From a virus, in IMG/VR virus record IMGVR_UViG_3300020051_001011, positions 1 through 49,488 of that record: 49,488 bases of DNA; one strand, given 5' to 3'. Of this stretch, positions 14,948-32,759 are shown one piece after another. How positions within the stretch are numbered: position 1 is the first letter of the stretch; every line of letters begins with the position of its first letter. The notes beneath the pieces were generated by a model. It had not been told where the DNA came from. It worked only from the letters and a program-made list of their open reading frames with translations, and ran no database searches. The position numbers and the translations under genes were made by a program.

Positions 14948-14962
14948 GGGAAGAAATAGATA

Positions 14963-15802: not shown

Positions 15803-15816
15803 CAAGGAAAAAATAA

Positions 15817-16653
15817 ATGGCAACGTATGACAGCTATAAACAGCTAAAAACAGACCAAATACCAGATAATTTTGTTAATTCGAATCAATTAGCAAATGGT
15901 GCAGGTGTTAGATATAACACTGTTTGGATATATAATAGTAGAATGATGCAATGTCACCAGTGTGCAAGCGCTGGAGGATGTTGTTGTCAATATTGCGGCG
16001 CATGCTGTTTATTTACTGTGCCATCAAAAGTATGTAGAGTTACTTTTGAAATTTGGTCAGGTGGGGGCGGCGGAGCAGGTCACACCTGTTGTAACTGCTG
16101 TTCGTTCTCAATTGGTGGCGCTGGAGGCAACTACGCCATTAGAACGATATCAACAAGCCCTGGATGTACATATACCGTGTGTGCTGGAGGAACTTGGCCT
16201 TGTAATAAATCGCATACTTGTAGTGCAGGTATGGGATGTCGTTCATACGTAAATGGACACAATCTAAGTAACTTCTGTGTTACTGGTGGTTGTGGCGGAT
16301 GGATGTGTAATGGTGATGCTTGGGGACCAAGACATCATACACAGGGGTGTGCTAACTGTAATATTTGCGGAATGTTTGGCTCTGATTTTGGAATGATGGG
16401 TACTGTCGGAATGAAACCAGGTCACGGCGGGTGTCACTGTTGGAGGGTTATGCAATGGACAGGACAAGCTCCGATTATTGGATTATCAGGAGCAAGTGGC
16501 GCATCTGAATCTTGGTGTACTTGTGGTTGTTACGCAGCACCTCCAGGAACAGGTGGAACGAGTGGCCTAAGCTCATATTGTGGTAATAACGCAAAATGTT
16601 GTGCAGGCGGCCAGGGCGGCGGCTCAGGAATAGTAAGAATTACATATGCTTAA
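15817..16653 (+). CDS. Cysteine/glycine-rich adhesin-like tail protein, paralogue 3
   Basis: 278 residues with about 32 Cys, the most of the three. The architecture is as in the two preceding paralogues, with IPDNFVNSNQLANG near the start, a denser first cluster (GGCCCQYCGACC) and an additional Cys after it. The loop at residues ~165-190 (GDAWGPRHHT, CANCNICG) matches paralogue 1 better than paralogue 2, while other segments match paralogue 2 better, so segments appear shuffled. Ribosome site AAGGA lies just upstream. It is the last gene of the adhesin run before a late-type promoter and the chaperone-like gene. Confidence 0.75.
   Translation: MATYDSYKQLKTDQIPDNFVNSNQLANGAGVRYNTVWIYNSRMMQCHQCASAGGCCCQYCGACCLFTVPSKVCRVTFEIWSGGGGGAGHTCCNCCSFSIGGAGGNYAIRTISTSPGCTYTVCAGGTWPCNKSHTCSAGMGCRSYVNGHNLSNFCVTGGCGGWMCNGDAWGPRHHTQGCANCNICGMFGSDFGMMGTVGMKPGHGGCHCWRVMQWTGQAPIIGLSGASGASESWCTCGCYAAPPGTGGTSGLSSYCGNNAKCCAGGQGGGSGIVRITYA
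16048..16117 (+). repeat. 70-bp near-identical block, copy 3 of 3
   Basis: Identical to the copy at 15194-15263; encodes the same Gly-rich and CCNCC segment. Confidence 0.8.
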
Positions 16654-16660
16654 AGATAAA

Positions 16661-16668
16661 CATAAATA
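16661..16668 (+). promoter_or_regulatory. T4-type late promoter octamer
   Basis: CATAAATA lies 23 nt before the ATG at 16692, with an AAGGAG ribosome site (16679-16684) between them. Confidence 0.6.
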
Positions 16669-16691
16669 TAACTATGTTAAGGAGTTAAAAA

Positions 16692-17402
16692 ATGCCAGAA
16701 GAAAATGAAGTAGTAATCTCAGAAGTTGAAATGTGTGAAACAACTTTCACTTATAAAATCCCTGACGATTTTAGAGAAAACACATTTGAAAAAGGTTATA
16801 CTGATACATTCACTTATCGCGGCCCGCGTTACCTGACATTTGAAATTGACAAAGATACAGGTAAAGAAAGCGGATGGTGTTTGGTATATCCTGCAGAACT
16901 CGAGAGGCCTACTCCTCTTAATGTTGAAAGAGTTTGCATCGATTGTTCACTTGAAGAAAACGGTCTACTATGTGAAATAGCTAATGATCAGGGAGATTCG
17001 ACGCAAGTTGAGTTTAGAGCAAACCGTACTTGGGTTCCGTACTTCACAAGCCCGGAAGGATATCTAAATATTGAAAAACCAACAGAATATGAACCTCGTG
17101 ACGTATATGATGAATTTAACATTACATACGACTTTGATACTAAAGAGTTCCATGTTCCAGTACATGATTGGGCTACAGACATTAAAATAGATATGACATG
17201 GGACGACATTAAAAAAGTACGTAACAAAGCACTTGCAGATACTGATGGTGCGTTTTCAGACGATATGCCTGAAGAATTAAAAAATAGATGGAAAACATAC
17301 AGACAGTTGTTAAGAGACTTGCCAACTGCATTAGCAGAGTTCCCTCCGTATATTGCAGCACAAATGTTCCCTACAATGCCTGTGGATGATCCTGAAGTAT
17401 AA
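16692..17402 (+). CDS. Protein with tail-fibre assembly chaperone-like C-terminus (236 aa)
   Basis: The C-terminal third (residues ~165-225) has the layout of the phage tail assembly chaperone family (Phage_tail_APC type): a helix with K-V-R-N-K-A-L-x-x-T-D, an acidic linker, then RWKTYRQLLRDLP and a Pro-rich end. The first ~160 residues are acidic and beta-rich with no family that I recognise. Such chaperones usually sit directly after the fibre or adhesin gene they help fold, and this gene directly follows the three adhesin paralogues, which supports the assignment. It has its own late-type promoter and is closed by a terminator. Confidence 0.65.
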   Translation: MPEENEVVISEVEMCETTFTYKIPDDFRENTFEKGYTDTFTYRGPRYLTFEIDKDTGKESGWCLVYPAELERPTPLNVERVCIDCSLEENGLLCEIANDQGDSTQVEFRANRTWVPYFTSPEGYLNIEKPTEYEPRDVYDEFNITYDFDTKEFHVPVHDWATDIKIDMTWDDIKKVRNKALADTDGAFSDDMPEELKNRWKTYRQLLRDLPTALAEFPPYIAAQMFPTMPVDDPEV

Positions 17403-17502: not shown

Positions 17503-18201
17503 ATGAAAAAATATTTTATAGACGAAATAGAAACGTTTGCAGTTAATGAAGATTTAAAAGTAAATGTTGAAACATTTGGTCCAAATGAAACTAAAGTTGT
17601 TACTGTAGATAACTTTTATAAAAATCCAGACCAAGTTAGAGATTTAGCATTAAGAATTCCGCCGTCTATAAATGAAAGAATTCGCACAAGGTTACCTGGT
17701 CCCAGGATAAATGCATTTTACTTAATGGATCATATGGGACCTATATTTGACAATATACTACAAACAGTATATCCAGAACAACATTTTCAATTTCCTCCTA
17801 ATCATATTAACGATGTGTTTCGTGATTCTACATTTATTGTTAATATTATGCATACCAAATTTTTAGAGCCGCGCCCGCCGCACATAGATTGCCCATATCC
17901 TACAGCATTTGCAGCAATGGTATTTTTAAATACTCCGGAAGAATGTAAAGGTGGAACAGGATTTTATTCATTTGATGGGCAAACAGGCGGAACTGAATTT
18001 GGCTTATATAAAGCTGATAACGGGAAACCTACCGACATATATGTAAATGGTGATATGGGTGATTGGAAAATGCATCACATGACAGAAATGAAATATAATC
18101 GAATGGTTATATATCAAGCAAACATTTATCATGCAGCATACATAACTGATGACATGTATAATGACGATGTTTATAGATTAAATCAAATGTTTTTTATATA
18201 G
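17503..18201 (+). CDS. DUF6445-like putative Fe(II)/2-oxoglutarate oxygenase (232 aa)
   Basis: The fold and motif layout match the DUF6445 group of 2OG-Fe(II) dioxygenase-like proteins, which often accompany flavin-dependent halogenases in bacteria. The putative iron ligands are H127 and D129 (PPHIDCP) and H210 (NIYHAAY), and R225 (YRLNQMF) could bind 2-oxoglutarate. Between them is a VFLNTPEECKGGTGFYSF segment typical of these enzymes. It starts 100 bp after the chaperone-like gene, beyond a terminator and a late-type promoter, so it begins a new operon with the SGNH-like, oxygenase and FkbM genes. The substrate is unknown. Confidence 0.75.
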   Translation: MKKYFIDEIETFAVNEDLKVNVETFGPNETKVVTVDNFYKNPDQVRDLALRIPPSINERIRTRLPGPRINAFYLMDHMGPIFDNILQTVYPEQHFQFPPNHINDVFRDSTFIVNIMHTKFLEPRPPHIDCPYPTAFAAMVFLNTPEECKGGTGFYSFDGQTGGTEFGLYKADNGKPTDIYVNGDMGDWKMHHMTEMKYNRMVIYQANIYHAAYITDDMYNDDVYRLNQMFFI

Positions 18202-19721: not shown

Positions 19722-20369
19722 ATGGGACCAGAAGGCAGCAATTTAAAAATATCAGAAAATGGTCAAGATTTTTTTGCACTTGATCGTAGTGCATATACAG
19801 AAAATGGTTTTTTTGTAGATATCGGAGCATCAGATGGTATTACAGCAAGTAATACATTTATCTTAGAAAAATTTTACAAATGGAGAGGTATTTGTGTAGA
19901 TCCAAATCCTGCATTTCAGCAAAGCCTAATGAACTGTAGAGATAACTTTGTTAGTACATTGTGCGTATACAACGAGACTGGTAAAATATTACCTTTTAAG
20001 TTTTGTGTAGATGAAAACCAATTTTACGGATGGAATTTTAGATCAGGATTAGAAAAGCATCTTGGCACTATTGATACAGATATTGATAAAAGTTTTATGA
20101 CTATTAATGTATTGTCTATTACTTTAAATGATTTATTAGCGTTATATCAAGCCCCTACAGACATAAACTATATTAGTATTGACACCGAAGGCAGCGAATA
20201 CGAAATATTAAAAACATTTGATTTTAAAAAATATAATGTAAAATGTTTTACAATTGAACACGAATTTACCAGTAATCGTCAATTGATTCACGATTTAATG
20301 ATTAAAAACGGATACAACCTTTTTACAGATTTTAATACTGAAAACGAAGACTGGTATTTTAAAAGTTAG
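19722..20369 (+). CDS. FkbM-family SAM-dependent methyltransferase (215 aa)
   Basis: The SAM-binding motif I is visible as FFVDIGASDG at residues ~29-38, followed by the acidic ribose-binding CVDPNP. The FkbM-specific segment LNDLLALYQAP followed by ISIDTEGSEYEILK is present at residues ~135-165. FkbM enzymes methylate sugar or polyketide hydroxyls, so an O-methylation of a glycan or small product is likely, inferred from family. The start follows the preceding stop by 1 bp with a GGAG ribosome site. Its last 11 bases overlap the convergent halogenase gene, so no terminator separates them. Confidence 0.85.
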   Translation: MGPEGSNLKISENGQDFFALDRSAYTENGFFVDIGASDGITASNTFILEKFYKWRGICVDPNPAFQQSLMNCRDNFVSTLCVYNETGKILPFKFCVDENQFYGWNFRSGLEKHLGTIDTDIDKSFMTINVLSITLNDLLALYQAPTDINYISIDTEGSEYEILKTFDFKKYNVKCFTIEHEFTSNRQLIHDLMIKNGYNLFTDFNTENEDWYFKS

Positions 20370-21840
20370 GCCAAGTACGCATAGTCCGTAATACTTCTAA
20401 CATTGTTTTATGCGGTATAGTAGTATACGGTGCGTTTGCGTTTTCAGTAATAGTATGCTCTGCTTCTAACTGTTTGTCATACGGCACTCGCATTTTATAT
20501 TCATGTGCAATATTATTAATGTCGAATAACCCTAAACCGTGCATTATTAAAATATAGTGGAAATGACTAAACAATATTTTGTCAGTAACTTTAGAAAAAT
20601 CTTTTTCAGAAGGAAGTGTGTTTTTCCATTTACTAAGATTTGAAGTCAGTGAATCTGGTAATTCAGTTTCTGATACAGCTTTCCAAAAATCTGTATCAGT
20701 TCGATTTCCTAAATAATGTAAAATAACAAAATCTCTTATATTTGTTAATATGTCATTGCAATCTGCATTATAATCTTTTATGCTGGTATCGTTGTAATTT
20801 ATAAGATGTTCAGTTAACAAAAATGCTTGTTGTATTGAGGTTCCGATAGAGCTTGCTTCTAACGGTTCTACAAAACTTGCACTAAGTCCGATTGCAACAC
20901 AATTTTTAATCCATGTATCTTTCAATGCTCCTGGATCAAAATTTATGTGTTTACTAATTTCTATTTCTCGACCAAAATATTTGTTAACTTCGGCATGTGC
21001 TTCGTCTGCTGTGATAAAGTCACTATCAAATATATAACCGTTTCCGTATCGTCCCCACACTGGCAATCTAAACATCCACCCAGCATCCATTCCTTGTGCA
21101 AGTGTCCACAAAGGTATTTCTTCATCTTTTTCAAATTCAATTGGAAAAACTATTGCAGATTTCATTTTTAAGTATTTAGAATATGACTCCCATTCACACC
21201 CTAACTCGTTCATTAATACTCGGCGAAACCCAGTACAATCAATAAAAAAATCTGATTCGTATAATTGTTGTTTGCCTTCTAAACTAACAATTCCATTTTC
21301 GTTTGAATTAACATTAATAATTTCGTCGTCAATGATGTTTATATTATAATCATTACTTAAATTTTCTAAGAATGTATTAAGTTTATTTGTATTAAAATGA
21401 TATTGTTGTACTTGAGTAGATTCTTGTCCTAAGAACCATACATTTGCTCTACTGTGCCAAGCAAGCGGACTTGCTAACTCTTTTGGACTTTTATTTTGAC
21501 TAATTTGATGTCCGTACATATAAGGATAGCCATTGTGAGTAATATTAAATCCATCACCGATACTTTGTAAGTAATCTTCGCCGCCCCAATTTTTAAACAT
21601 AATTCCTGACTTAAAGGTAGCATCTGTTTCTTGTATAAGAGTACGTGCGTTAATATTCATAAATTCCATAAACTCAGACCAGTGTTCTGTTGATCCTTCA
21701 CCGACACCGATTATACCGATATCAGATGATCGTATAACTGTTACATTAATTTCTGGAAATGACTTCTTTAGTATGAGTGCAGATACTAATCCAGCTGTAC
21801 CGCCTCCGAGTACTGTTATACTGTTTATATGTTTATTCAT
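20359..21840 (-). CDS. Flavin-dependent (tryptophan-type) halogenase 1 (493 aa)
   Basis: It belongs to the FAD-dependent tryptophan halogenase family, like the viral halogenase VirX1 of a marine cyanophage. The FAD motif GGGTAG is at residues 12-17. K77 (DATFKSGI) sits where the catalytic lysine of PrnA/RebH is, and E328 (VEPLEAS) corresponds to the catalytic Glu near the halide site. The diagnostic WxWxIP motif is altered to WMFRLP (255-260). An EGSTEHW segment replaces the usual GEGT sequence. It is expected to use FADH2, oxygen and halide to form hypohalous acid; no flavin reductase is seen in the window. It is a lone gene facing the FkbM gene, with a late-type promoter 5 nt before its ATG. 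Confidence 0.88.
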   Translation of the reverse strand: MNKHINSITVLGGGTAGLVSALILKKSFPEINVTVIRSSDIGIIGVGEGSTEHWSEFMEFMNINARTLIQETDATFKSGIMFKNWGGEDYLQSIGDGFNITHNGYPYMYGHQISQNKSPKELASPLAWHSRANVWFLGQESTQVQQYHFNTNKLNTFLENLSNDYNINIIDDEIINVNSNENGIVSLEGKQQLYESDFFIDCTGFRRVLMNELGCEWESYSKYLKMKSAIVFPIEFEKDEEIPLWTLAQGMDAGWMFRLPVWGRYGNGYIFDSDFITADEAHAEVNKYFGREIEISKHINFDPGALKDTWIKNCVAIGLSASFVEPLEASSIGTSIQQAFLLTEHLINYNDTSIKDYNADCNDILTNIRDFVILHYLGNRTDTDFWKAVSETELPDSLTSNLSKWKNTLPSEKDFSKVTDKILFSHFHYILIMHGLGLFDINNIAHEYKMRVPYDKQLEAEHTITENANAPYTTIPHKTMLEVLRTMRTWPNF

Positions 21841-21959: not shown

Positions 21960-22955
21960 ATGTCAAGACCAAAGGCGTATTTTATAAACGGAGGTGCAGG
22001 CCGCGTTATCAGTTCAATTCCTGCATTTGAAAAACTTGCAGAAACTGATGAAGATTTTATTATTGTATGCGAAGGCGGCATGGACTTTTACAAAGGACAT
22101 CCTACACTGCATAATCGTGCATACGATAATTGGCACAAAGGACTGTTTCAAGAACACTTAAAACATCGTGATATTGTAAGCCCAGAACCATATCGTGTTT
22201 GGGAGTATTATAATCAAAAATGTAATCTTGCTCAAGCATTTGACATTGCTATTAACAATAAAGGTGTAAGAGAATTACAAGACCCTAAAATTGTTTTAAA
22301 TCAAATAGAGATGGTATCAGGTTTTAACATTGTACAAGAAGTACGTGCAAAGACTGGTTTTGATAAAGTATTAGTAGTACAGCCGTTTGGTCGCGGAATT
22401 CAAAATATGGGAGAAATGACAATTGATCCTACTGCTCGAAGCATGCATTTAAACAGTGTTATTAATATAGTAAACGATCTTAAAAAAGAATATGCAATTA
22501 TTTTAATGAGCGAATTTCCTGTAGCATTTGAAGAAAAAGATACTGGAAAGTTTCCTGTAGCAATGCCTCAGATTCCAGATCTACGTGTATGGTCGAGTGT
22601 TATAGATTGTTCAGATCACTTTTTAGGAGTAGACAGTGTCGGTCAACATATTGCAAAGAGCTTAGGAAAAACAGCAACGGTGATTACAGGATCTACGTTC
22701 CCTGTCAATATTAGCTACCCTGGTTCGGATACATTTGATATCATTGACATTGGTGAAGGAAAACGTGTATATGATCCTATTCGTCTTACTATGGAAGATG
22801 AAGTTAATAGAGCAAATGATGCTGTAATGGATATGAATAAAGAACAAACACAAGCAGTATTGCATAGTGTAAGAAAACGCTTAGGAAGATCTACAAAATT
22901 TACTGGACAGTATGTTCCTCCTAACGAAGAAGACAATAGTTGCTGCTCAGTATAA
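21960..22955 (+). CDS. GT9 (heptosyltransferase)-like glycosyltransferase (331 aa)
   Basis: The C-terminal half has the segment DHFLGVDSVGQHIAKSLGK (~residues 219-237), which matches the conserved H/G-x-D-S-x-x-x-H-x-A-x-x-L-G motif of GT family 9, the ADP-heptose:LPS heptosyltransferases, followed by a VITGST strand that would contact the nucleotide sugar. The N-terminal Rossmann-like domain begins NGGAGRVISSIPAFEKL, which resembles the G-x-G-D-x-x-x-x-x-P segment of the family without its Asp. The end is short and Cys-containing (DNSCCSV). The link to the ADP-heptose genes on the opposite strand is inferred from context. It heads a + strand operon with its own promoters. Confidence 0.7.
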   Translation: MSRPKAYFINGGAGRVISSIPAFEKLAETDEDFIIVCEGGMDFYKGHPTLHNRAYDNWHKGLFQEHLKHRDIVSPEPYRVWEYYNQKCNLAQAFDIAINNKGVRELQDPKIVLNQIEMVSGFNIVQEVRAKTGFDKVLVVQPFGRGIQNMGEMTIDPTARSMHLNSVINIVNDLKKEYAIILMSEFPVAFEEKDTGKFPVAMPQIPDLRVWSSVIDCSDHFLGVDSVGQHIAKSLGKTATVITGSTFPVNISYPGSDTFDIIDIGEGKRVYDPIRLTMEDEVNRANDAVMDMNKEQTQAVLHSVRKRLGRSTKFTGQYVPPNEEDNSCCSV

Positions 22956-22956
22956 T

Positions 22957-23481
22957 ATGAATTATTTGTCTGAAATATACAGTTCGTTTGCATTAGATTT
23001 GCATTACAATGACTACAGACATATATTAGATTGTTTTTCATTAAATGAAAATAGTCATAGAGACAGCGGCGGATCAACAGTTTATTATAAAGACGAATTT
23101 AAATACCCTTACGAAATTGATACTAATAACAATTATATTAATTTTGTAAAACAGTCATTAACTGTATATCCTTTCCTACAAGATGTAGAGTTTTCTAAGG
23201 CGTGGTGGGTAGATTATCCACTACACTCTTATAACGGATTTCATTCGCACAATCCAGGACCTCAACTAACTTCTGTACTTTTTCTAACAACATCAGAAGT
23301 TGATGATTATAATCCGCATGAAGGATTTTTATATTCTTTAAATAATGGCGATTATAATGAGTATCGTCCAGTTGCTGGAAATCTTCATATATTTGATGGC
23401 ACTGTGTGGCACGGAACATATCCAACATTACAGCCGAGAAAAGTGTTTGTGTGTGATTTTACATATAGGTTAGCAGTATGA
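22957..23481 (+). CDS. Putative 2OG-Fe(II) oxygenase, tandem paralogue A (174 aa)
   Basis: Start chosen at the ATG at 22957, 1 bp after the preceding stop; an upstream in-frame ATG at 22912 lies inside the glycosyltransferase gene and adds residues absent from the paralogue. H96 and H98 (GFHSHNP), H152 (VWHGTYP) and R161 (PRKVFVCDF) form an H-x-H...H...R pattern of 2OG-Fe(II) oxygenases. The neighbouring gene at 23478 is a clear paralogue (shared R/S-GGST-x-x-Y, WW-V/I-DYP, AGN, HG-x-Y and RKVFV segments). The function and substrate are unknown. No strong ribosome site is visible, consistent with translational coupling. Confidence 0.65.
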   Translation: MNYLSEIYSSFALDLHYNDYRHILDCFSLNENSHRDSGGSTVYYKDEFKYPYEIDTNNNYINFVKQSLTVYPFLQDVEFSKAWWVDYPLHSYNGFHSHNPGPQLTSVLFLTTSEVDDYNPHEGFLYSLNNGDYNEYRPVAGNLHIFDGTVWHGTYPTLQPRKVFVCDFTYRLAV

Positions 23482-24008
23482 ATATAGATTTACCTTTTTT
23501 TGATCAAACTAATTTTCATTGGATAACTGAAACATATTATCCAGAATATGAAAGATTTTTAAATTTATATAATAAAGATGTGTCTTGTCAGCATCATTTA
23601 GAACGTGGTGGATCAACAATGTTTTATAAATGGGATTACGGATACCCCACTGAAGTTGATCCTGCCAAAGATTACCTTACCTTTCTAAGAAATAGTGTAA
23701 GTACTACATTACAAGATGCAACATATGCAAGTAGTTGGTGGATTGATTATCCGCCAGGATCGTATTCTGTGGCACATCAACATATACAAAGTCGTAGATT
23801 TAGTGCAATATTATTTTTATCAGATTATGAATGGATTAGAAAATGGCCACATGCTGGAAATTTATATTCTATGTCGAATGCGATTGGATATAAAGAATGG
23901 GAACCAAAAGCAGGCAATGTAATAATAATGGACGGCGGGATACATCACGGATCTTATCCTGCAATTAACGAACGTAAAGTTTTTGTAATAGATTTTGAAT
24001 ATAATTAG
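23478..24008 (+). CDS. Putative 2OG-Fe(II) oxygenase, tandem paralogue B (176 aa)
   Basis: The product is paralogous to the preceding gene and overlaps its stop by 4 bp (ATGA). H100 and H102 (VAHQHIQ), H156/H157 (GIHHGSYP) and R166 (ERKVFVIDF) give an oxygenase-type ligand set. The strand AGNVIIMDG before the last His is typical of the cupin-like double-stranded beta-helix fold. Two copies side by side suggest sequential or alternative oxidation of related positions; this is inference. A 2OG oxygenase assignment rests on motif layout only. Confidence 0.65.
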   Translation: MNIDLPFFDQTNFHWITETYYPEYERFLNLYNKDVSCQHHLERGGSTMFYKWDYGYPTEVDPAKDYLTFLRNSVSTTLQDATYASSWWIDYPPGSYSVAHQHIQSRRFSAILFLSDYEWIRKWPHAGNLYSMSNAIGYKEWEPKAGNVIIMDGGIHHGSYPAINERKVFVIDFEYN

Positions 24009-24016
24009 GAGATAAT

Positions 24017-25837
24017 ATGGCACAGTGGATAGCAGCAATAGCAAGGGGCCATAATTCAGGCGTTTGCTTATTAAAAGATGGCGAAATTGTTTTTGCAATC
24101 GAAGAAGAACGATTAAGTAGACATAAGTACGACGGCGGCCCTTACGCATCAATGCTTAAAATATTAGATTACACTGATAAATTAGATTACTTGTTTATCG
24201 CACATACACAGCCTTTAAAAGAAACAGCAGGAACTGTTGATTTTACAGGTGACGATGTTTATACAGGATTAGCTCGTAAGTTGGGATTAATTTCTCGAAC
24301 AGAAGATCCATATAATCATCCACAAGTAATTGATTTAGCACACATGCATCATAAACTTCATGCAGCATGTGCATTTTATAGATCAGGTTTTGATAATGCA
24401 GTGGCACTTATTGTAGATGGTGCAGGAACATTTATTCCTATGCAAATGGGTGAAACTACTGAAATGACCTGGGAATTAGAATCTATCTTTACTTGTAGAT
24501 ACCCTGCTAATTTTAAAACAGTGTATAAACATCAAGGAGGAAGAGGCCCTTGGCCTGCTGCACATATTGAAGATATGCCAAGTGATAATTTTGGCGAAAC
24601 TGGCGAAACTCACGAGTTAATAATAGACGACACAGCAGGCATTACAAAGGCATATGAAGCGGTTACGCAATACTGCGGTTGGTCGCCGATTGAGGCTGGT
24701 AAGACTATGGGACTGTTCCCGTACGGAGAGAAAAACGACAATGTTCCTGCTATTTACTCAGACGGCAATGGCGGCATGTGGCGTACAACTGATAGGAATT
24801 TAGTTATTCCTACATATCCAAACGGCGCTGTTATTAACGAAGGTCGTTACGAATATCTACTTACACCTACTGACATTCAAGACAAAGACGAATTAACGTA
24901 TTTGCAGAATCGTCGTGATATGGCATACGCAGTACAAACACAAAGTCAATCAGAAGTACTGCGTTTAATTCGAAAAGCAGTTGCAGATACAGGAATTAAA
25001 AACATTGTATTAAGCGGAGGTTATGGCTTAAATTGTGTTGCTAACTACTGGTACTTAAAAGAATTAGAAGGCGAAGGCATAAACTTTTATGTTGAACCAA
25101 TAAGTAGCGATGCAGGTACGTGCATTGGCGCAGCATTATTTGGCTATCATATGTTAACTAACGATGACACTCAGCGAGCATTTGCAGACAGCTTATATTT
25201 AGGCCCGCAATACAACTATACTGACGAAGAAATTAATACGTTAGCAGAAAAATATAATGCAGAATTATCTGATATTACTAACACAGAAGTCATTAATCTT
25301 ATGACTGGTAAAACAAACGGTGAAAGAAATATTGTTACTTTGTTCCAAGGTAAATCAGAAAATGGTCCTCGTGCATTAGGAAATAGAAGTATCATGTATG
25401 ACCCAACTGATCCTAATGGTAAAGACTTTGTTAATAAAGTTAAACGTAGAGAGTACTTCCGTCCGTTTGCAGGATCTATTTTGCATGAGCATGCACATGA
25501 ATGGTTTGATATGCGCGGCCTAGAAGAATCTCCGCATATGATGTATGCTATGAATTGTCAAGAAGGTATTGCAGAAAAAATTCCAAGCATTATTCACGTA
25601 GACGGTACATGTCGTATCCAAACAGTCAAGCGTGAACAAAATCCGCATTACTACGATTTGATTAAAGAACTTTATAAGCAAACAGGAGTACCGATTGTAT
25701 TTAATACAAGTTTTAACTTAGGAGGCGAGCCATTAGTTGAGACATTAGATGATGCATTTAGAACATTAGCAAGTAGCGATATTGAATATTTGTATCTACC
25801 TGAGTATAACAAACTGGTAACTATTAAAAATGATTAA
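24017..25837 (+). CDS. Carbamoyltransferase, NodU/CmcH/TobZ family (606 aa)
   Basis: It is full-length for the family (about 550-620 residues). The N-terminal Kae1-like domain begins with HNSGVCLL (12-19), has EEERLSRHKYDG (29-40), the metal-binding HHKLH (111-115) and DGAGT (134-138). The C-terminal YrdC-like domain carries GPRALGNRS (450-458), REYFRPFAGSIL and FNTSFNLGGEPLV. These enzymes move a carbamoyl group from carbamoyl phosphate through carbamoyladenylate to a hydroxyl of a sugar or antibiotic. An AGGAG ribosome site lies 8 bp upstream. The stop overlaps the start of the next oxygenase by 8 bp. Here it probably decorates a sugar product; acceptor unknown. Confidence 0.9.
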   Translation: MAQWIAAIARGHNSGVCLLKDGEIVFAIEEERLSRHKYDGGPYASMLKILDYTDKLDYLFIAHTQPLKETAGTVDFTGDDVYTGLARKLGLISRTEDPYNHPQVIDLAHMHHKLHAACAFYRSGFDNAVALIVDGAGTFIPMQMGETTEMTWELESIFTCRYPANFKTVYKHQGGRGPWPAAHIEDMPSDNFGETGETHELIIDDTAGITKAYEAVTQYCGWSPIEAGKTMGLFPYGEKNDNVPAIYSDGNGGMWRTTDRNLVIPTYPNGAVINEGRYEYLLTPTDIQDKDELTYLQNRRDMAYAVQTQSQSEVLRLIRKAVADTGIKNIVLSGGYGLNCVANYWYLKELEGEGINFYVEPISSDAGTCIGAALFGYHMLTNDDTQRAFADSLYLGPQYNYTDEEINTLAEKYNAELSDITNTEVINLMTGKTNGERNIVTLFQGKSENGPRALGNRSIMYDPTDPNGKDFVNKVKRREYFRPFAGSILHEHAHEWFDMRGLEESPHMMYAMNCQEGIAEKIPSIIHVDGTCRIQTVKREQNPHYYDLIKELYKQTGVPIVFNTSFNLGGEPLVETLDDAFRTLASSDIEYLYLPEYNKLVTIKND

Positions 25838-26405
25838 TGAGATCTTCTCAACTCCAATTTACGAATGCAAGATGCCAGACCACGAAAGGCTTAAAGAAGC
25901 CTTTCTTCCATTTTCGGTAGACGATGCTAATTTTGCAACTCCTGTAGGATGGAGTTGCAATGCAGATTCTACATTTGGCAACGAACCGATTGCAGGAATG
26001 CCGTGGGATAAGTTTTTTAATAGTGTGTTACCGTTAGTTGAAAAATATGTAAACGACATTGGCGGAATAGGACAATATTCCATTGGATGCCAGGCTTGGA
26101 TGAATAGATACAACTATGGACAACATCAAGAAGTGCATGCCCACTCTAATGGATCAAATGTTATTAGTTGTGCGTATATGTTAGAAAAACCAGAAAATAG
26201 TGGTGATTTTGTTTTCTATAAATCAAGCAATGACTTTTTTCAAAAGGTTAATTTACAAACAGAAATATATGGTAACAAGTATGTGCCAGAAATGACAGAA
26301 GGAAGTGTTGTATTGTTTCCGAGTAGCTTGGATCATTATGTAACGTATAATCAAACCCAAGCTACAAGAGTTACAATTAGTGCAAACTTTGCAATAACTT
26401 TTTAA
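25830..26405 (+). CDS. Putative 2OG-Fe(II) oxygenase (191 aa)
   Basis: PF13759-type protein beginning with the typical I-F-S-T-P-I-Y segment. H103 and H105 (EVHAHSN), H169 (SLDHYVT) and R180 (ATRVTISANF) are candidate iron and 2-oxoglutarate ligands, with strands SCAYML and GSVVLFPSS between them. It overlaps the carbamoyltransferase stop by 8 bp, so translation is coupled. Its stop overlaps by 4 bp the stop of the convergent gmhB-like gene. Similar proteins are widespread in marine T4-like phages without assigned substrate. Confidence 0.75.
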   Translation: MINEIFSTPIYECKMPDHERLKEAFLPFSVDDANFATPVGWSCNADSTFGNEPIAGMPWDKFFNSVLPLVEKYVNDIGGIGQYSIGCQAWMNRYNYGQHQEVHAHSNGSNVISCAYMLEKPENSGDFVFYKSSNDFFQKVNLQTEIYGNKYVPEMTEGSVVLFPSSLDHYVTYNQTQATRVTISANFAITF

Positions 26406-27049
26406 TTTTTCTTTTCCAACCAATCAACAAACTGAGAAAGATCGTCAAAAATGATGGTCTTTTTCTTTATCTTTTGATTACTGAATTTGTTTAGTTCTTT
26501 GATAGTTTCTTCACCGTGTCCTGTGCGTACAAGGACTGGTACTGCGCTCATTTTAAATGCAGCTTTAAGATCGGATATTTTATCGCCTACAAAGTATCCG
26601 TGTTTGAATTTAATGTATTTGAACTCGTCCTGGCATCGTTTGAACATTCCAGTATTGGGTTTTGCAAAATTGTCTTCTCGCAAACTTGTAGTGCTATAGT
26701 ATAATGCATCAATACTTGGACAACCTGCTTCGCCTAACAATTGAAACATATACTCATGAACTTTGTCAACATCTGACTCTGTGTATAGCCCTTTACCAAT
26801 TCCGCCTTGATTTGTAATAATGGCAATTTTGTGACCCATTCGTCTTAGTTTAGCAATTGCTTCTAAGCTACCGTCTATAGGTTTGAAATCTTCAGGACGA
26901 TACGTGTAAGTACCTCTGTCGACATTAATTACACCGTCTCGATCTAACCCTACAACACACTTAGGAGCAATGTTATGTATATTGTCATATACAGGAACAT
27001 ACTCTTGTTTCTTAACTTCGTTGCTCCATACTATGTTATAATTACTCAT
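26402..27049 (-). CDS. gmhB: D-glycero-D-manno-heptose-1,7-bisphosphate phosphatase-like HAD protein (215 aa)
   Basis: HAD phosphatase of the histidinol-phosphate/GmhB type. The nucleophile motif is LDRDGVIN (35-42, D36 and D38), motif II is TNQGGIG (79-85), then K130-P, and motif IV is GDKISDL (155-161). In E. coli GmhB a loop with Cys and His binds structural zinc; here the corresponding stretch (about 115-130) reads ALYYSTTSLREDNFAK and has no such ligands. A ~25-residue N-terminal extension is present. It removes the C7 phosphate in the ADP-heptose route by family knowledge. The start overlaps the cupin stop (ATGA). It is the last gene of the hldE operon, supporting the role. Confidence 0.8.
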   Translation of the reverse strand: MSNYNIVWSNEVKKQEYVPVYDNIHNIAPKCVVGLDRDGVINVDRGTYTYRPEDFKPIDGSLEAIAKLRRMGHKIAIITNQGGIGKGLYTESDVDKVHEYMFQLLGEAGCPSIDALYYSTTSLREDNFAKPNTGMFKRCQDEFKYIKFKHGYFVGDKISDLKAAFKMSAVPVLVRTGHGEETIKELNKFSNQKIKKKTIIFDDLSQFVDWLEKKN

Positions 27050-27438
27050 TTGCTACTCGCAGTCTGGCTGTCTCCTGGGCCGATACGAAAATTATCTTCT
27101 ACGCTATCTGGAGTACTCACTTCGGTTAGACTCGATTCATCTTGCATTGCTACTAATTGGTGCGGCATTAATGGCGGGTTATGCCAAACATCGCCTTCAT
27201 TTAATTCTTTTTCATATAGCATCGAATCAGCAGTATCAATATAACGTACTTTAAATTTTCCGCTATTTATAAACCATGTTTCGTCTTTTTCTTTGTGAAA
27301 ATGCATGCTGGTCTTCATGCCTTCTTTATTAAAAAACATAATCTTTCCACAGTACTTGTCGTTAGTAGCCCAAATTAATTCGTAGCCCCAGCCTTTTTGT
27401 ACTGCGCCGCTTAACCGTGTTGGCTGTTTATTTTCCAT
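27046..27438 (-). CDS. Cupin-domain sugar-pathway protein (130 aa)
   Basis: Small single cupin. Motif 1 is HFHKEKDETWFINSG (H46, H48, E53) and motif 2 has PPLMPHQLVA (H93), so a metal site is complete. The opening GWGYELIWAT resembles the cupin of mannose-6-phosphate isomerase-like proteins. The C-terminal TPDSVEDNFRIG segment is also typical of this group. It lies between hldD-like (11 bp overlap) and gmhB-like (4 bp overlap) genes, so a sugar phosphate or nucleotide-sugar isomerase or binding role is likely, but its exact reaction is not known. Confidence 0.8.
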   Translation of the reverse strand: MENKQPTRLSGAVQKGWGYELIWATNDKYCGKIMFFNKEGMKTSMHFHKEKDETWFINSGKFKVRYIDTADSMLYEKELNEGDVWHNPPLMPHQLVAMQDESSLTEVSTPDSVEDNFRIGPGDSQTASSK

Positions 27439-28237
27439 TTATAAAATCCTTTGGTGTTGTGAAGTTAATGTTTACTATATTACTTAAACGTTCTATGTTT
27501 GCACATGTGTATTCTTGATATTGTCCTTTAAGATTATCAGGCATTGGAATATATTCAATCTTAGCTTTAAATCGTTTTGCAACTAATTCTGCAATAGTTT
27601 GAAAACTTGTTGCAACTCCGGTACCGATATTAAATATACCTTTCTCAGATGTTGTGAGCATGTAACGATGTATGTTACAACAATCACCTACATATATAAA
27701 GTCTCTTAGATACTTGTCACTATTTTCAAACAGTGTAATAACGCCTTCTTCTTTTGCTTGTTTAAAGAACTTGGTTATAGGGCTTGCTTGATTTCCTTTG
27801 TGATCTTCATACGGTCCGTATACATTAAAGTAACGAAATCCTTGTACTATAATGTCGTGCTTTTGTTGCATAACCCAACGGTCAAACAAGTACTTGCTTG
27901 TTGCATAATAGCTCTGGGGCTGCTTTGGTGCGTCTTCTCTAAAATCAGTGTTAGAGCCGTATACACTTGCGCTCGAAGCGTATTGTAGATTTACTCCGTT
28001 GGTGTTACACTCATTAAACAACCACTTTGAAAATTCATAATTTTGCAACATTACTTTATCTATGTCGCGTTCAGTAGTTGCACTAATTGCTCCTAAATGT
28101 ATAACCCAATCATATTGAGATACATCAGGCAACGCGGCTGGATTCCATTCATATCCGAATAACTCATTATCTTTGTCAAGAAATGGCGCTAAATTTTTAC
28201 CAATAAATCCTTCGTGACCTGTTATTAATATTTTCAT
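27428..28237 (-). CDS. hldD: ADP-L-glycero-D-manno-heptose 6-epimerase-like SDR (269 aa)
   Basis: Extended short-chain dehydrogenase with GHEGFIG (7-13) for NAD(P) binding and the catalytic YATSK (111-115), preceded by SSASVYG. HldD-type features are FRYFNVYGPYEDHKG, the IFNIGTG strand, and IEYIPMPDNLKGQYQEYTCA, which closely follows the HldD signature YIPFPxxLKGxYQ. It is shorter than E. coli HldD (310 residues), mostly by a compact N-terminal half. The likely reaction is C6 epimerization of ADP-heptose. It overlaps the halogenase 2 stop by 4 bp. Confidence 0.85.
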   Translation of the reverse strand: MKILITGHEGFIGKNLAPFLDKDNELFGYEWNPAALPDVSQYDWVIHLGAISATTERDIDKVMLQNYEFSKWLFNECNTNGVNLQYASSASVYGSNTDFREDAPKQPQSYYATSKYLFDRWVMQQKHDIIVQGFRYFNVYGPYEDHKGNQASPITKFFKQAKEEGVITLFENSDKYLRDFIYVGDCCNIHRYMLTTSEKGIFNIGTGVATSFQTIAELVAKRFKAKIEYIPMPDNLKGQYQEYTCANIERLSNIVNINFTTPKDFINGK

Positions 28238-29670
28238 TTAATTGCCTGTAAGTGAGAAATAATATATTGACTATTATCAACGTCGGAAATAGTCTCGCTC
28301 CAATTTGATAATATTTCATTTGCAATATCATCATCGATGTTTTTATTTTTTCCTATATTCTTTTCAAATTGCAGCAGCCAACAAATCCAATTTGCGCCGC
28401 CAAACAAATAACCCTTTCCGTTATAGTTAATAGGTGTTCCGGCTTCTATTATATTTTTGTAATACAAATATGTTTCTGACGGAATGATATTTTCTTTAAC
28501 ATGATTCCAAAAAGGTGTATTTTTATCTGTATAAATGTAATGCATATTAACAAAATCAATAGTGTCTTCATATAGCGCATTCATTGTACTATTAAATATT
28601 TCGATATCATATTCATTATAATATCCTGTATTAATACTATGCGTCAAATATACAATAGCATTAGTAATAGATCCTATACCAGTAGATTCTAACGGTTCAA
28701 TAAATCCGCCACTTAGGCCTATAGCAACAACATTACCGTCCCACATATTTTTGTTATAATACGGGGTCCAGTCTATTACTTTTAAATCATCTGGAGTGAT
28801 TCTATCATTCCAATGCTTGCATAGATATTGTTTCGCCTCGTCAATGCTTGTTATACTTCTATTGAACACTAAACCAGTTCCTGTTCGCGATCGGACAGGA
28901 ATTTTCCAAATCCATCCATGGTCGACTGCTGGACATTCTACATAAGGCATACATTCGACTTCTGCATCTATGTAAGGAACATGACCGGCTACAGCAGTGT
29001 CACAAAACAGTCTATTAGTAAGATCGGTTCGTTGTGGACTATGTTGTAGTACTTGATTAAATCCTGTACAATCTACAAACAAGTCAGAATTAATTGTATC
29101 ACCGTTTTTAAGAGTAAGATGATTAATGATATTGTCTGTACGATTAATAGCAACTACTTCAGATTTAATTAAAGTAATACGTGATAATATTTTTTCTTGT
29201 AACCAAATAACTAACTTACTGCAATCGATGTGCATTGCATATGCAGAATTCAAATTATTAATGTCTACTTTGTTTTCTAAACTTATATTAAAAAACATCA
29301 TTAATTCGTTAATTTTTTCTTGTTCAATATATGTTAACGCTTCGTAGACATTGGCATCGTATTTGCTATAATCCATATTTAATGTAAACGGATGCCATAC
29401 TAAGTTTTTATCGCCATTAAATTGAGGGAACAAAATGCCTGCTTTGTATGTTGCATCGATAGCATCAAACCATTCTTCTTGTTTAAATCCGCATTCTGCT
29501 AAGAAATGTTTAAAACCTAATAACGTGCCTTCTCCAACTCCAACAGGCGTTCCAACTTCTTTGTCAACAACAGTTATATTACAGGCTGTATTCTTTAAAA
29601 GATAAGCAGCAGTTAGCCATCCACTTGTTCCGCCACCTACTATTGTTATATTGTTTACTGTGTTATGCAT
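28234..29670 (-). CDS. Flavin-dependent (tryptophan-type) halogenase 2 (478 aa)
   Basis: Second member of the FAD-dependent halogenase family in this window. GGGTSG (12-17) binds FAD, GVGEGT (44-49) follows, K76 (DATYKAGI) and E328 (IEPLESTG) are the catalytic pair, and the WxWxIP signature is intact as WIWKIP (253-258). It is clearly divergent from halogenase 1, so the two are unlikely to be a recent duplicate and may differ in substrate. It is embedded between hldE and hldD with 8-bp and 4-bp overlaps, tying its expression to heptose synthesis. Substrate could be an indole, phenol or other electron-rich group; not predictable from sequence. Confidence 0.88.
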   Translation of the reverse strand: MHNTVNNITIVGGGTSGWLTAAYLLKNTACNITVVDKEVGTPVGVGEGTLLGFKHFLAECGFKQEEWFDAIDATYKAGILFPQFNGDKNLVWHPFTLNMDYSKYDANVYEALTYIEQEKINELMMFFNISLENKVDINNLNSAYAMHIDCSKLVIWLQEKILSRITLIKSEVVAINRTDNIINHLTLKNGDTINSDLFVDCTGFNQVLQHSPQRTDLTNRLFCDTAVAGHVPYIDAEVECMPYVECPAVDHGWIWKIPVRSRTGTGLVFNRSITSIDEAKQYLCKHWNDRITPDDLKVIDWTPYYNKNMWDGNVVAIGLSGGFIEPLESTGIGSITNAIVYLTHSINTGYYNEYDIEIFNSTMNALYEDTIDFVNMHYIYTDKNTPFWNHVKENIIPSETYLYYKNIIEAGTPINYNGKGYLFGGANWICWLLQFEKNIGKNKNIDDDIANEILSNWSETISDVDNSQYIISHLQAIK

Positions 29671-30805
29671 TGCTTGCCTCTATAATTCTTGTTGTACTGT
29701 AACCTTCTACTGTAGGCACAATATGCACAGGTGCTAAGTCATGCCCTACTACAGTTTCTACAGTATAATCTCCGCCCTTAACAATAAGAGCAGGGTTTAA
29801 TCTTTTAATTAAGTTATACGGAGTGTCGTCGTTAAACACAAACACTTCATCTACCCAAGGCAATGCTTCAAGTTGCTCTATTCTAGTTTGTTCATCATTA
29901 ATCGGTCGACTGTCGCCTTTAAGCCTTTTAACACTTGCGTCACTGTTAATACCTACTACAAGTTTAGTACCTAAACTGCGAGCTTGTTTTAATAGTTCAA
30001 AATGTCCTTTGTGTAGTATATCAAATACGCCATTAGTAAACACTATAGATTGTTCAAAATCTTTTTTACTTAAGACATATGTACCTGCATGTTTTACACT
30101 TTCAGTTGCTGCGTCAACAGCCATTTGCAAACAAGTTGCGTAATTTTTTCCAATGTCAATACCGTATACAAATGCTGCTAAGAAACAATCACCTGCTCCA
30201 GTAACATCTGATACTTCGACTTGATCTACAATTGCGGTATAATCAGCATTGTCAATCTTAGCATGTACTGCGTCATGTGCGTGAGTTGTAATAATGTTAC
30301 CTAGCCAAGTATCAAATCCTAACTCACGATATTCTTTGTTATTAGGTTTAACTAACCATGCGCCTTTATAATAACTAGAATGACGTTTAGGATCTACAAT
30401 AACTTTACAGCCAAAACTATTAAGATGTTCTATAATTTCTAAAGAACGATCTAACACACCTTTGTTATAGTCACTGAGAATAACATAGTTGTACTGCGAG
30501 AAATCAGTTGCTCGTATAGTGTCTAGCACTACATTGCCGTTGGCGTGTTTGTCATCATCAATGCGTGTGATATAATGACCGTCGCAAATTACTCTAGTTT
30601 TGATACTGCTAGCATTATCTGTTTTAAACAGTTCAACATCAACACCTAAACTTTTAAGATTTTCATATACTAGACCTGCGCCGCCTATTGTTTCAACTTC
30701 ACGCAGATACTTAACTACAGGGACAGGAGCCTCTGGACTTAATCTTGTGCTGGTTCCGTAGATGTATTTGTCGATGATTATATCACCAAGAACTAAAACT
30801 TTCAT
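29663..30805 (-). CDS. hldE: Bifunctional heptose-7-phosphate kinase/heptose-1-phosphate adenylyltransferase, compact HldE-like (380 aa)
   Basis: Residues 1-~248 form a PfkB-type sugar kinase: GDIIIDKYIYG at the start, the substrate segment LSPEAPVP, GGAGLVYENLKSLG, VDPKR, KPNNKE and the anion-hole/catalytic DVTGAGD (200-206). Residues ~252-380 form a RfaE-type nucleotidyltransferase: FTNGVFDILHKGH (256-268) with the HxGH-like site, RLKGDSRP, KGGDY and GYSTTRII (368-375). E. coli HldE has 477 residues; here the kinase half is about 70-90 residues shorter. It should phosphorylate heptose-7-phosphate at C1 and then add AMP. It is the first gene of the - strand operon, with a consensus promoter 7-35 bp upstream. 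Confidence 0.88.
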   Translation of the reverse strand: MKVLVLGDIIIDKYIYGTSTRLSPEAPVPVVKYLREVETIGGAGLVYENLKSLGVDVELFKTDNASSIKTRVICDGHYITRIDDDKHANGNVVLDTIRATDFSQYNYVILSDYNKGVLDRSLEIIEHLNSFGCKVIVDPKRHSSYYKGAWLVKPNNKEYRELGFDTWLGNIITTHAHDAVHAKIDNADYTAIVDQVEVSDVTGAGDCFLAAFVYGIDIGKNYATCLQMAVDAATESVKHAGTYVLSKKDFEQSIVFTNGVFDILHKGHFELLKQARSLGTKLVVGINSDASVKRLKGDSRPINDEQTRIEQLEALPWVDEVFVFNDDTPYNLIKRLNPALIVKGGDYTVETVVGHDLAPVHIVPTVEGYSTTRIIEASNA

Positions 30806-30811
30806 GTTTAA

Positions 30812-30840
30812 ATTATACTATCTCTTAAGTTATTTGTCAA
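30812..30840 (-). promoter_or_regulatory. Perfect-consensus sigma-70 promoter for the hldE operon
   Basis: On the minus strand TTGACA (30840-30835) and TATAAT (30817-30812) are separated by exactly 17 bp. It sits between hldE and the upstream Nudix gene, with the -35 box overlapping the last codons of the latter. Confidence 0.85.
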
Positions 30841-31270
30841 GTAAATCAATTACTTTAAACACTGTTTCTAATTTGCTTAAATTAACTTTATTTTGAAGTG
30901 TGTTTTTTAGTCCGTGGTGTAAAGGTTTTGGCCATTTACCGAATTCAACCCATGCATACCCGTCATGCTCTTCGTTGAGCAAAGGCATAAACTCTTGATC
31001 GACTACACTTAGGTATGTATGAAAATGGAATCGGCTATCATTACTAATAAACGTTTCTAACGGCATTGTTTTTATAATAGAGATTTCACCAATCTCTTCA
31101 AAGATCTCACGTTTAAGACCTTCCCATGGTGATTCGCATCCTTCATTAGTGCCACCGACAAGCCCCCACAAATTACCAGAGCGTCCTTTTACCCTATGTA
31201 AGAATAAAAAACGTTTAGTATTAAGGGCATATACGATTGCACCACTGCAAATAATCTTATCAGTCTTCAT
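30830..31270 (-). CDS. Nudix hydrolase (146 aa)
   Basis: The start is placed at the ATG at 31270, 13 bp after the gp15 stop; a GTG at 31321 in the same frame would overlap gp15 by 38 bp. The Nudix box GX5EX7REUXEEXG is visible at residues 40-61 (G40, E46, R54-E55, E58-E59, G61). The segment VKGRSGNLWGLVGG before it is typical of nucleoside-diphosphate-X hydrolases. The substrate could be a nucleotide sugar, capped nucleotide or oxidised nucleotide. Placed at the junction of virion genes and cassette; on the same strand as gp15 and possibly read from its transcript. Confidence 0.85.
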   Translation of the reverse strand: MKTDKIICSGAIVYALNTKRFLFLHRVKGRSGNLWGLVGGTNEGCESPWEGLKREIFEEIGEISIIKTMPLETFISNDSRFHFHTYLSVVDQEFMPLLNEEHDGYAWVEFGKWPKPLHHGLKNTLQNKVNLSKLETVFKVIDLLDK

Positions 31271-31283
31271 ACTAATAATTATC

Positions 31284-32759
31284 TTAGTATGCGAGTCTCC
31301 AAGTGCCGTTTGGATATTCACCGTCGTATGCTAATATCCATTCGCCGTTTTCAAATTTATATTGTTTGCCAGTATTAAGATTAGAAGTATATATAACTGT
31401 GTCGTCTTGAGCGCTAGCATCAAATACTACAATCCAGTTAGTGCCATCCCATTCAATAATGTCGTTAGCGCCTGCTACAAAATCAGAACCGTCTGCATTT
31501 TTCCAAGCATCTGGTCCGTCGTATGCAAAATTATCAGGGGTTTCGTACCCTGCATCTTGCCCGACGTTTTCACTATTATTAATATCAAGAAGTATTAATA
31601 TACGAGGATTACTTGATTTTAAATCTGTAGGATTAGTTTTATACGGATTAATAATATAATCAATTTTGTTACGATCACCATTCGGGCCACTAATAACTGT
31701 ATCTGCAGGTAGCGTGTCAGCGTCCCATACAATTGATAATTCGTATGGATCTAATGGATTAACTACAACAGTGCCCACAACTTCGTTATCTAAATCTCTG
31801 CGATTAAGTCTTAATTCAGTAACGCCTGCATCAAATACAAATGGCATAGATGTTAAATACCCTGGCCAAGTTTCTGCGCCTACTATGCCTTTTCTGACTA
31901 ATTTAGCAGTTGTTCCCATTACTAGCAATCCGTAGTTGTCATGACCGGACGAAATTGCAATGTCAACTCCATTAATAAATGTACCTTCATTGTCGATTTT
32001 TTCTTGTATTTCGCCTGTATTTGCAACTACTACTTGAGTTCTAATATCAGCTGCTGCTACTCGTGATAAATCAAGATCAATCTCACCTCTGGTATCGTTA
32101 AAGATGCTATTAATGACTTGCGTAACAACTCCGAGACGTTTAACTTTAACAGGTGGACTAATATAGATTGGAGTTGTAAAAGTTAATGTAGCAATATCAA
32201 TGTCGCTCTCAGTTCCTGTAGGTATCGATCTACTACTAAAAACTGTCCCAGTTAAATTTACTACACTTAAACTTGTCCAGTCGACATAGTTATCAGTTGT
32301 TTGAATTTCTAAACTTGGATTAAACAACATTAATATTTGTTCTAATATTTGTAGCTTTTGATCTGTATTTGAACTCCATATATCTACATTTACTGTTAGT
32401 GTATACGGAGTAGGCATTAGACGTTCTACTGTATAATTCTTACCTTCGGTATTTAAATACTCTTGACCATTAGCATCGTATGCACGTTCTCTAATGTTCA
32501 TTTTATTAACATAACTACTATCGCTTAGGCGATTAGTATCAAGTTCCAGACCAGTGATATACACCGCCATGCGAGGCGCACTTGGAATTTTGTTTTCGCT
32601 GTTTTCTCTAATAATGTTAGCAACTTGACGGGTCAAATCTCCATACATTACTGGAATCTGTGTCAAGTTGCCTTTGCCATCTTTGTAACTAAAGTTACTC
32701 ATCAAGCGAACTATTTGTGTAATATATCTGCGGATTTGACCGTCGTAAAAATGTTGCAT
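31284..32759 (-). CDS. gp15: Tail sheath stabiliser/completion protein, gp15 homologue (491 aa)
   Basis: The N-terminus FYDGQIRRY matches the start of T4 gp15 (FYNSSFRRY), followed by IPVMYGD-x-x-R, LMPTPYTLTVNVDIW, EQILMLFNPSLEIQTTDNY and the TFTTPIYISPPVKVK strand, all in the order of T4-like gp15. T4 gp15 has 272 residues; the extra ~220 are a C-terminal extension whose last ~70 residues contain two W/Y-x-x-DG-x-x-W-like motifs (EWDGTNWIVVFD and FENGEWILAYDG). The start overlaps the upstream stop by one base (TAATG). gp15 caps the contracted sheath and connects to the neck. Confidence 0.85.
   Translation of the reverse strand: MQHFYDGQIRRYITQIVRLMSNFSYKDGKGNLTQIPVMYGDLTRQVANIIRENSENKIPSAPRMAVYITGLELDTNRLSDSSYVNKMNIRERAYDANGQEYLNTEGKNYTVERLMPTPYTLTVNVDIWSSNTDQKLQILEQILMLFNPSLEIQTTDNYVDWTSLSVVNLTGTVFSSRSIPTGTESDIDIATLTFTTPIYISPPVKVKRLGVVTQVINSIFNDTRGEIDLDLSRVAAADIRTQVVVANTGEIQEKIDNEGTFINGVDIAISSGHDNYGLLVMGTTAKLVRKGIVGAETWPGYLTSMPFVFDAGVTELRLNRRDLDNEVVGTVVVNPLDPYELSIVWDADTLPADTVISGPNGDRNKIDYIINPYKTNPTDLKSSNPRILILLDINNSENVGQDAGYETPDNFAYDGPDAWKNADGSDFVAGANDIIEWDGTNWIVVFDASAQDDTVIYTSNLNTGKQYKFENGEWILAYDGEYPNGTWRLAY

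Follow-up and report, generated by a model that had tools for sequence, protein, structure and literature searches.

Flavin-dependent halogenases (FDHs) make HOX beside a catalytic lysine, their substrates are activated aromatics and heteroaromatics, and the phage enzyme VirX1 has a broad range (PMC8407142). Halogenases of this kind (VirX1 and its kin) are common in marine phages, with potent biochemical activity in at least one case; no established natural substrate was found for them in the literature consulted. In cyanophages prnA occurs, and there are large LPS clusters in which T4-GC 304, 305, 307 and 308 are found together as LPS genes (Sullivan 2010, PMC3037559). The tail-fibre hypervariable region of pelagimyophages includes rfaE and glycosyltransferase genes (PMC7029224). 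Heptose is absent from cyanobacterial LPS (PMC4390846), and therefore the product of the cyanophage genes is unlikely to be an ordinary host LPS core. TibC, in which the catalytic Asp of the GxGD motif is Asp110, heptosylates proteins, which sets a precedent for proteins as acceptors (PMC4358343). The adjacency of halogenase and heptose genes is visible in the record of the cultured cyanophage S-SSM7, and a limited literature search found no paper discussing it. An earlier note on this DNA held that halogenases have no part in any known heptose pathway; this stands insofar as no paper joining heptose, phage and halogenase was found in that limited literature, but the S-SSM7 adjacency was already public.

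The stretch of DNA analysed here (the window) is the 49,488 nucleotides of IMG/VR virus record IMGVR_UViG_3300020051_001011, from a marine virus that infects bacteria. It contains an operon with the order NUDIX, HldE-like, halogenase, HldD-like, cupin, GmhB-like (Table 1). The halogenase of the operon, Hal2, is a real gene and not a chance open frame, because two further IMG/VR records of this population (L004/L022/L102; L005/L023) have it too, with the same junctions. The reading favoured here, with reasonable rather than great confidence, is that Hal2 performs an optional oxidative tailoring step, exchangeable for others, in a phage ADP-heptose/GT9-fold/carbamoyltransferase pathway, and that it would halogenate an aromatic acceptor group and not the heptose.

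Table 1. Features of the window discussed in the text, in order of position
Feature	Position	Strand	Remarks
First halogenase (Hal1)	20359..21840	-	different clade from Hal2; adjoins GT9-fold gene
GT9/heptosyltransferase-fold 'hypothetical protein'	21960..22955	+	phrog_8954 / T4-GC 302; motif ADHFLGxDSxGQH
2OG-Fe(II)-oxygenase-like gene	22912..23481	+	weak matches only
2OG-Fe(II)-oxygenase-like gene	23478..24008	+	weak matches only
NodU-type carbamoyltransferase	24017..25837	+	constant partner of GT9-fold gene
2OG-Fe(II) oxygenase, TIGR02466-like	25830..26405	+	
GmhB-like HAD phosphatase	26402..27049	-	DRDGV motif
Cupin	27046..27438	-	shared by almost all heptose operons in these phages
HldD-like ADP-heptose 6-epimerase	27428..28237	-	269 aa; GxxGFIG, YATSK (YxxxK)
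Hal2/hldD junction	28234..28237	-	right cassette boundary; L103 identity resumes here
Hal2, flavin-dependent halogenase	28234..29670	-	478 aa, ATG; PF04820 / phrog_2928; between hldE and hldD
hldE/Hal2 junction	29663..29670	-	left cassette boundary; L103 identity stops here
HldE-like bifunctional kinase/adenylyltransferase	29663..30805	-	380 aa; kinase half shortened
NUDIX hydrolase	30830..31321	-	upstream of hldE, conserved operon flank

The contents of the slot between hldE and hldD were compared among relatives found by two IMG/VR scans, with the window HldE and HldD proteins as queries and the best-scoring 80 loci taken from each. These loci supplied 119 distinct hldE..hldD stretches from viral contigs, a set biased to close relatives by its selection from the best scores. 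In 103 of the 119 stretches hldE abuts hldD and the slot is empty (the two genes overlap by 4 bp in 73, by 26 bp in 28 and by 1 bp in one, and an 8-bp gap separates them in one). Another 13 have 517-650 bp between the two genes, encoding oxygenase-like proteins of 172-209 aa; a single one, that of the window population, holds a halogenase, and two more are broken or fragmentary. The 13 slot proteins represent five types, with matches to the 2OG-Fe(II)-oxygenase, phrog_274, phrog_81 or phrog_1644/DUF6445 families, in some cases only weak in Pfam. The flanks of the operon (gp15, NUDIX, cupin, GmhB) are conserved in the IMG/VR loci. Among 18 long records sampled through hldE/hldD, the GT9-fold gene is present on 17, and 16 have no halogenase anywhere, although the records are fragments and the gene may lie elsewhere in those viruses. 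An obligate heptose-operon gene would be present whenever hldE-hldD is, and Hal2 is not. It is best read as an optional decorating step and not as a fixed part of heptose synthesis, because near relatives carry either nothing or a different oxidising enzyme in the slot. The phrog_274 slot genes labelled 'DNA endonuclease V' (denV; L003:11441-11995 and those of L031, L081 and L120) also match 2OG-Fe(II) oxygenase families, and the label on these slot proteins is likely a propagated misannotation.

The closest relative at the junction, L103, is identical to the window at 123 of 123 bp from the 3' end of hldE up to the Hal2 start codon. A 172-aa 2OG oxygenase then takes the place of Hal2, and the match to the window resumes at the hldD start codon with 84.8% DNA identity; this 5.9-kb contig has a further NUDIX and cupin, encoded on the opposite strand at its distal end, and may be a chimera. 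The same oxygenase type fills the slot in L172 and L174. The window HldE nests with halogenase-free L024 (81%) and HldD with a different halogenase-free group, L062/L104/L107 (86-88%). By these groupings, the parts of the operon on either side of the slot have different closest relatives, and the breakpoint falls at or near the slot. The comparison with L103 fits gene-precise cassette replacement by recombination, the timing and direction of which we infer.

In a tree of 94 phage halogenases the Hal2 clade comprises 37 rows, within which Hal2 has no clear single sister. Hal2-type halogenases, defined by 35% identity or more to either Hal2 or the S-SSM7 enzyme, number 41 distinct proteins. The fetched locus contains hldE for 35 of them (directly adjoining in 23), the carbamoyltransferase for 31 and the GT9-fold gene for 26, all of which are lower bounds since loci were short or cut. 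Several arrangements recur: NUDIX-Hal-Hal-hldE-hldD-cupin in G022, G023, G025 and G028 (with the same spacing in G026 and G027), Hal-hldE(nt) in S-SSM7 and related loci, Hal-Hal(-Hal)-hldE(nt) with two or three halogenases in L006 and L329-L331, and hldE-Hal-hldD in the window. The linkage is inflated by the clustering of T4-like accessory genes near tail fibres and by the use of a halogenase as query for several loci, and is nevertheless probably not due to chance, judging from these gene neighbourhoods. The earlier proposal of a shared pathway for halogenation and heptose activation is supported by this recurrence beside hldE in several arrangements and lineages; its other half, that the two are needed at the same stoichiometry, is not.

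The foremost alternative is that Hal2 is a passenger cassette in a permissive junction, with an unrelated target such as free Trp or signalling or defence metabolites. It would explain why slot contents differ between close relatives. Other phage halogenases sit away from heptose genes (P-SSM2, Syn1, S-RIM44, Syn10 VirX1), often beside tail-fibre genes and 2OG oxygenases, and the 80 bacterial-genome loci with the best relatives (phage proteins as queries) had no hldE, hldD, GT9 or carbamoyltransferase gene detected near the halogenase, both of which would also suit a passenger. Yet the Hal2 clade is concentrated in heptose/GT9/carbamoyltransferase loci, beside hldE in more than one arrangement, and the alternative slot genes are also of oxidative tailoring types and not random, so that a passenger with an unrelated target is considered rather unlikely. 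On the same 80 loci a bacterial origin of the arrangement was rejected. Two of these bacterial-genome halogenases exceed 40% identity (L351, L352); both are on MAG contigs and may be viral.

Hal1 has GWMFRLP in place of WxWxIP (GWMFRIP in its kin), and EASS in place of ESTG after the conserved EPL. Its activity is possibly different, to judge by these motifs. A 301-aa protein encoded at 18210-19115 matches nothing in Pfam or PHROG, and its relatives neighbour Hal1-type halogenases in dozens of marine contigs; it is a possible partner protein of these enzymes, as its neighbourhoods suggest. The PHROG 'minor coat protein' at 17503-18201 is a DUF6445 protein whose relatives adjoin halogenases in marine bacteria (L368, L376, L395, L411) and, in L058, occupy the place between hldE and hldD.

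Hal2 itself matches the Pfam profile PF04820 with an E-value of 1.2e-79 and 268.8 bits (cut-off 21). The FDH signatures GxGxxG, WxWxIP, catalytic Lys and catalytic Glu are all intact: GGGTSG is found at 12, GVGE at 44-47 and W253-I-W-K-I-P258 at the WxWxIP position, while Lys76 aligns with PrnA Lys79 and Glu328 with PrnA Glu346. Compared with solved structures, the predicted model (pTM 0.90) gives Z 42.0 for PyrH (467 residues, rmsd 2.3), 38.4 for the peptide-Trp halogenase MibH and 37.7 for VirX1. By profile, motifs and model, Hal2 is an intact flavin-dependent halogenase of the PF04820 family, for which halogenating activity is predicted. That it is instead a flavin monooxygenase of the PF04820 fold, hydroxylating and not halogenating, has in its favour the hydroxylase-type 2OG oxygenases that fill the slot elsewhere and a weak NCBIfam similarity to the monooxygenase QhpG, but the intact signatures and the tryptophan halogenases as closest solved folds make this improbable.

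Hal2 overlaps hldE by 8 bp and hldD by 4 bp, and both figures of the earlier note are exact in the coordinates and in the junction sequences. From these overlaps it had been concluded that the halogenase is translationally locked into the operon. Other overlaps in the window include HldD/cupin (11 bp), cupin/GmhB (4 bp) and NUDIX/gp15 (38 bp). Each of the four junctions in the hldE-gmhB interval has an overlap, and so have 12 of the 35 junctions in the window where neighbouring genes share a strand. Because overlaps are common across its junctions, those of Hal2 are uninformative: they are ordinary packing of this genome and say nothing special about the gene. The empty operon overlaps too, mostly by the same 4-bp ATGA-type hldE/hldD junction, and a translational lock by overlap was ruled out. 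Related genomes with an otherwise identical operon lacking the halogenase, without a change in function, had been named in advance as the refuting observation. As far as sequence can show, gp15-NUDIX-hldE-hldD-cupin-gmhB is found in this state in more than 100 distinct contig stretches, and a need at the same stoichiometry is not supported. Sugar nucleotides are poor substrates for electrophilic halogenation. That Hal2 is integral to heptose activation, and held to equal stoichiometry by coupled translation, is thus very improbable: real overlaps and a clade that repeatedly adjoins hldE are set against this chemistry, the lack of a halogenase on most long hldE/hldD records, overlaps that are generic, unrelated oxygenases in the slot of relatives, and the halogenase-free operons, which contradict obligate coupling.

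The heptose enzymes are named with '-like' because they score under the NCBIfam equivalog cut-offs despite matching these families best. The HldE-like protein has both domains in one chain, kinase (TIGR02198) and adenylyltransferase (TIGR02199), with GAGD and GVFDILHKGH motifs, and scores 160.8 against a cut-off of 345 for TIGR02198, 162.2 against 181.5 for TIGR02199 and 268.2 against 521 for PRK11316. The HldD-like protein reaches 246.6 bits with TIGR02197 (cut-off 274.6), still its best family, and the GmhB-like protein 146 bits with PRK08942 (cut-off 178). The cyanophage counterpart of the window cupin is labelled cysteine dioxygenase (T4-GC 307). A profile search of an 87-kb sister record found no GmhA (PF13580), and flavin reductase (PF01613) had no match on that record and five others, all of them fragments; the host would therefore supply both, and a host reductase could serve Hal2. 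A cyanophage protein annotated 'phosphoheptose isomerase' (L003:15536-15871) has only 111 aa, and PF13580 has no match on G030, which carries a close homologue; the annotation is doubtful.

The protein encoded at 21960-22955 has no Pfam or PDB sequence match and its homologues are labelled 'hypothetical' in every annotated phage examined; its GT9 identity is visible from the fold only. The model (pTM 0.88) matches 3tov (Z 21.6), WaaF 1psw (18.8), TibC (18.5) and WaaC (18.2), with the next unrelated fold at Z 11.7, and the predicted structure is a GT-B fold of the GT9 type. By motif alignment, Arg15 stands where GT9 enzymes have the catalytic GxGD Asp, and it is (nearly) invariant in 32 homologues. 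Heptosyltransferase activity is not assured because of this replacement, and the protein may not be an ordinary heptosyltransferase. The GT9-fold protein is found on 33 of 34 records and an HldE match likewise on 33 of 34, and the carbamoyltransferase follows the GT9-fold gene in nearly all loci. In L297, L298, L300 and L302 two GT9-fold copies flank the carbamoyltransferase, with no heptose gene detected.

With Hal2 read as an optional tailoring enzyme, the gene would have entered a tightly packed ADP-heptose-type operon at the hldE-hldD cassette slot. The HldE-like, GmhB-like and HldD-like proteins would make ADP-heptose, the first isomerase probably being the host's, and the GT9-fold protein would transfer the sugar. 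The NodU-type carbamoyltransferase and several 2OG-Fe(II) oxygenases may then decorate the product. Hal2 would take host-supplied reduced flavin and halogenate an activated ring on the glycosylation acceptor, because heptose is not an activated aromatic FDH substrate; candidate acceptors are an aromatic aglycone and the Trp or Tyr residues of a tail-fibre protein. In this role it would stand in for the oxygenases that fill the slot of relatives. The position near tail fibres points to proteins of the virion or an altered host surface as the target; in the window the tail-fibre-proximal genes lie at 14108-17402. We infer that these enzymes act on one product, that it is located on the virion or host surface, and what Hal2 acts on. 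A more general picture, in which marine phages place a heptose-bearing glycoconjugate on their own tail fibres or on the host surface and vary it through exchange of oxidative cassettes, one option being halogenation of an aromatic acceptor residue, is tentative and rather doubtful; if true, it would give the widespread marine viral halogenases their first natural role. Near-identical operons with a halogenase, an oxygenase or nothing in one slot allow a concrete search for the substrate.

The S-SSM7/S-SSM6a cluster (Kyanoviridae; T4-GC 302-308) has in common with the window the GT9-fold gene, carbamoyltransferase, halogenase, cupin, hldD and 2OG oxygenases, and is tail-fibre-proximal. The S-SSM7 halogenase is 37.5% identical to Hal2 and overlaps the hldE nucleotidyltransferase by 4 bp. 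In S-SSM7, however, HldE is split in two genes in reverse order, the halogenase lies upstream of hldE, and hldD is on the opposite strand. Another cultured cyanophage, S-CAM1, has heptose genes and no halogenase in the cluster. By its terminase (47662-49242) the window phage, unlike S-SSM7, falls outside the cyanomyoviruses: this protein is closest (54%) to that of the Pseudomonas jumbo phage PA5oct and not to those of cyanophages, and the cluster therefore crosses deep phage lineages.

VirX1 (cyanophage Syn10, iodinating, PDB 6QGM) is, like Hal2, an FDH of the PF04820 family encoded by a phage, and the two agree in fold and catalytic residues, but it is only 29% identical and belongs to another clade, and the 4 kb examined to each side of its gene contain no heptose genes. 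The tryptophan halogenases PrnA, PyrH and RebH share with Hal2 the fold, the Lys79/Glu346 equivalents and WxWxIP; they are secondary-metabolite enzymes with a defined pocket for free Trp, whereas Hal2 is shorter and lies in a sugar-nucleotide operon. The protein heptosyltransferases TibC/BAHT and the GT9 enzymes WaaC/WaaF resemble the protein at 21960-22955 in fold (Z 18-19), in a D-S-x-x-x-H motif and in the heptose-nucleotide genes alongside, but identity is about 10-14% and the GxGD Asp is an invariant Arg in the phage protein. The locus gives one halogenase clade recurrent partners (heptose nucleotide genes, a GT9-fold protein, a carbamoyltransferase and 2OG oxygenases) and proposes an identity for the conserved phage 'hypothetical protein' T4-GC 302 / phrog_8954. 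What is new in comparison with the known systems is that the slot is exchangeable, together with what it holds and where it ends, that one halogenase clade is recurrently linked to heptose genes, and that the T4-GC 302 protein has a predicted GT9 fold.
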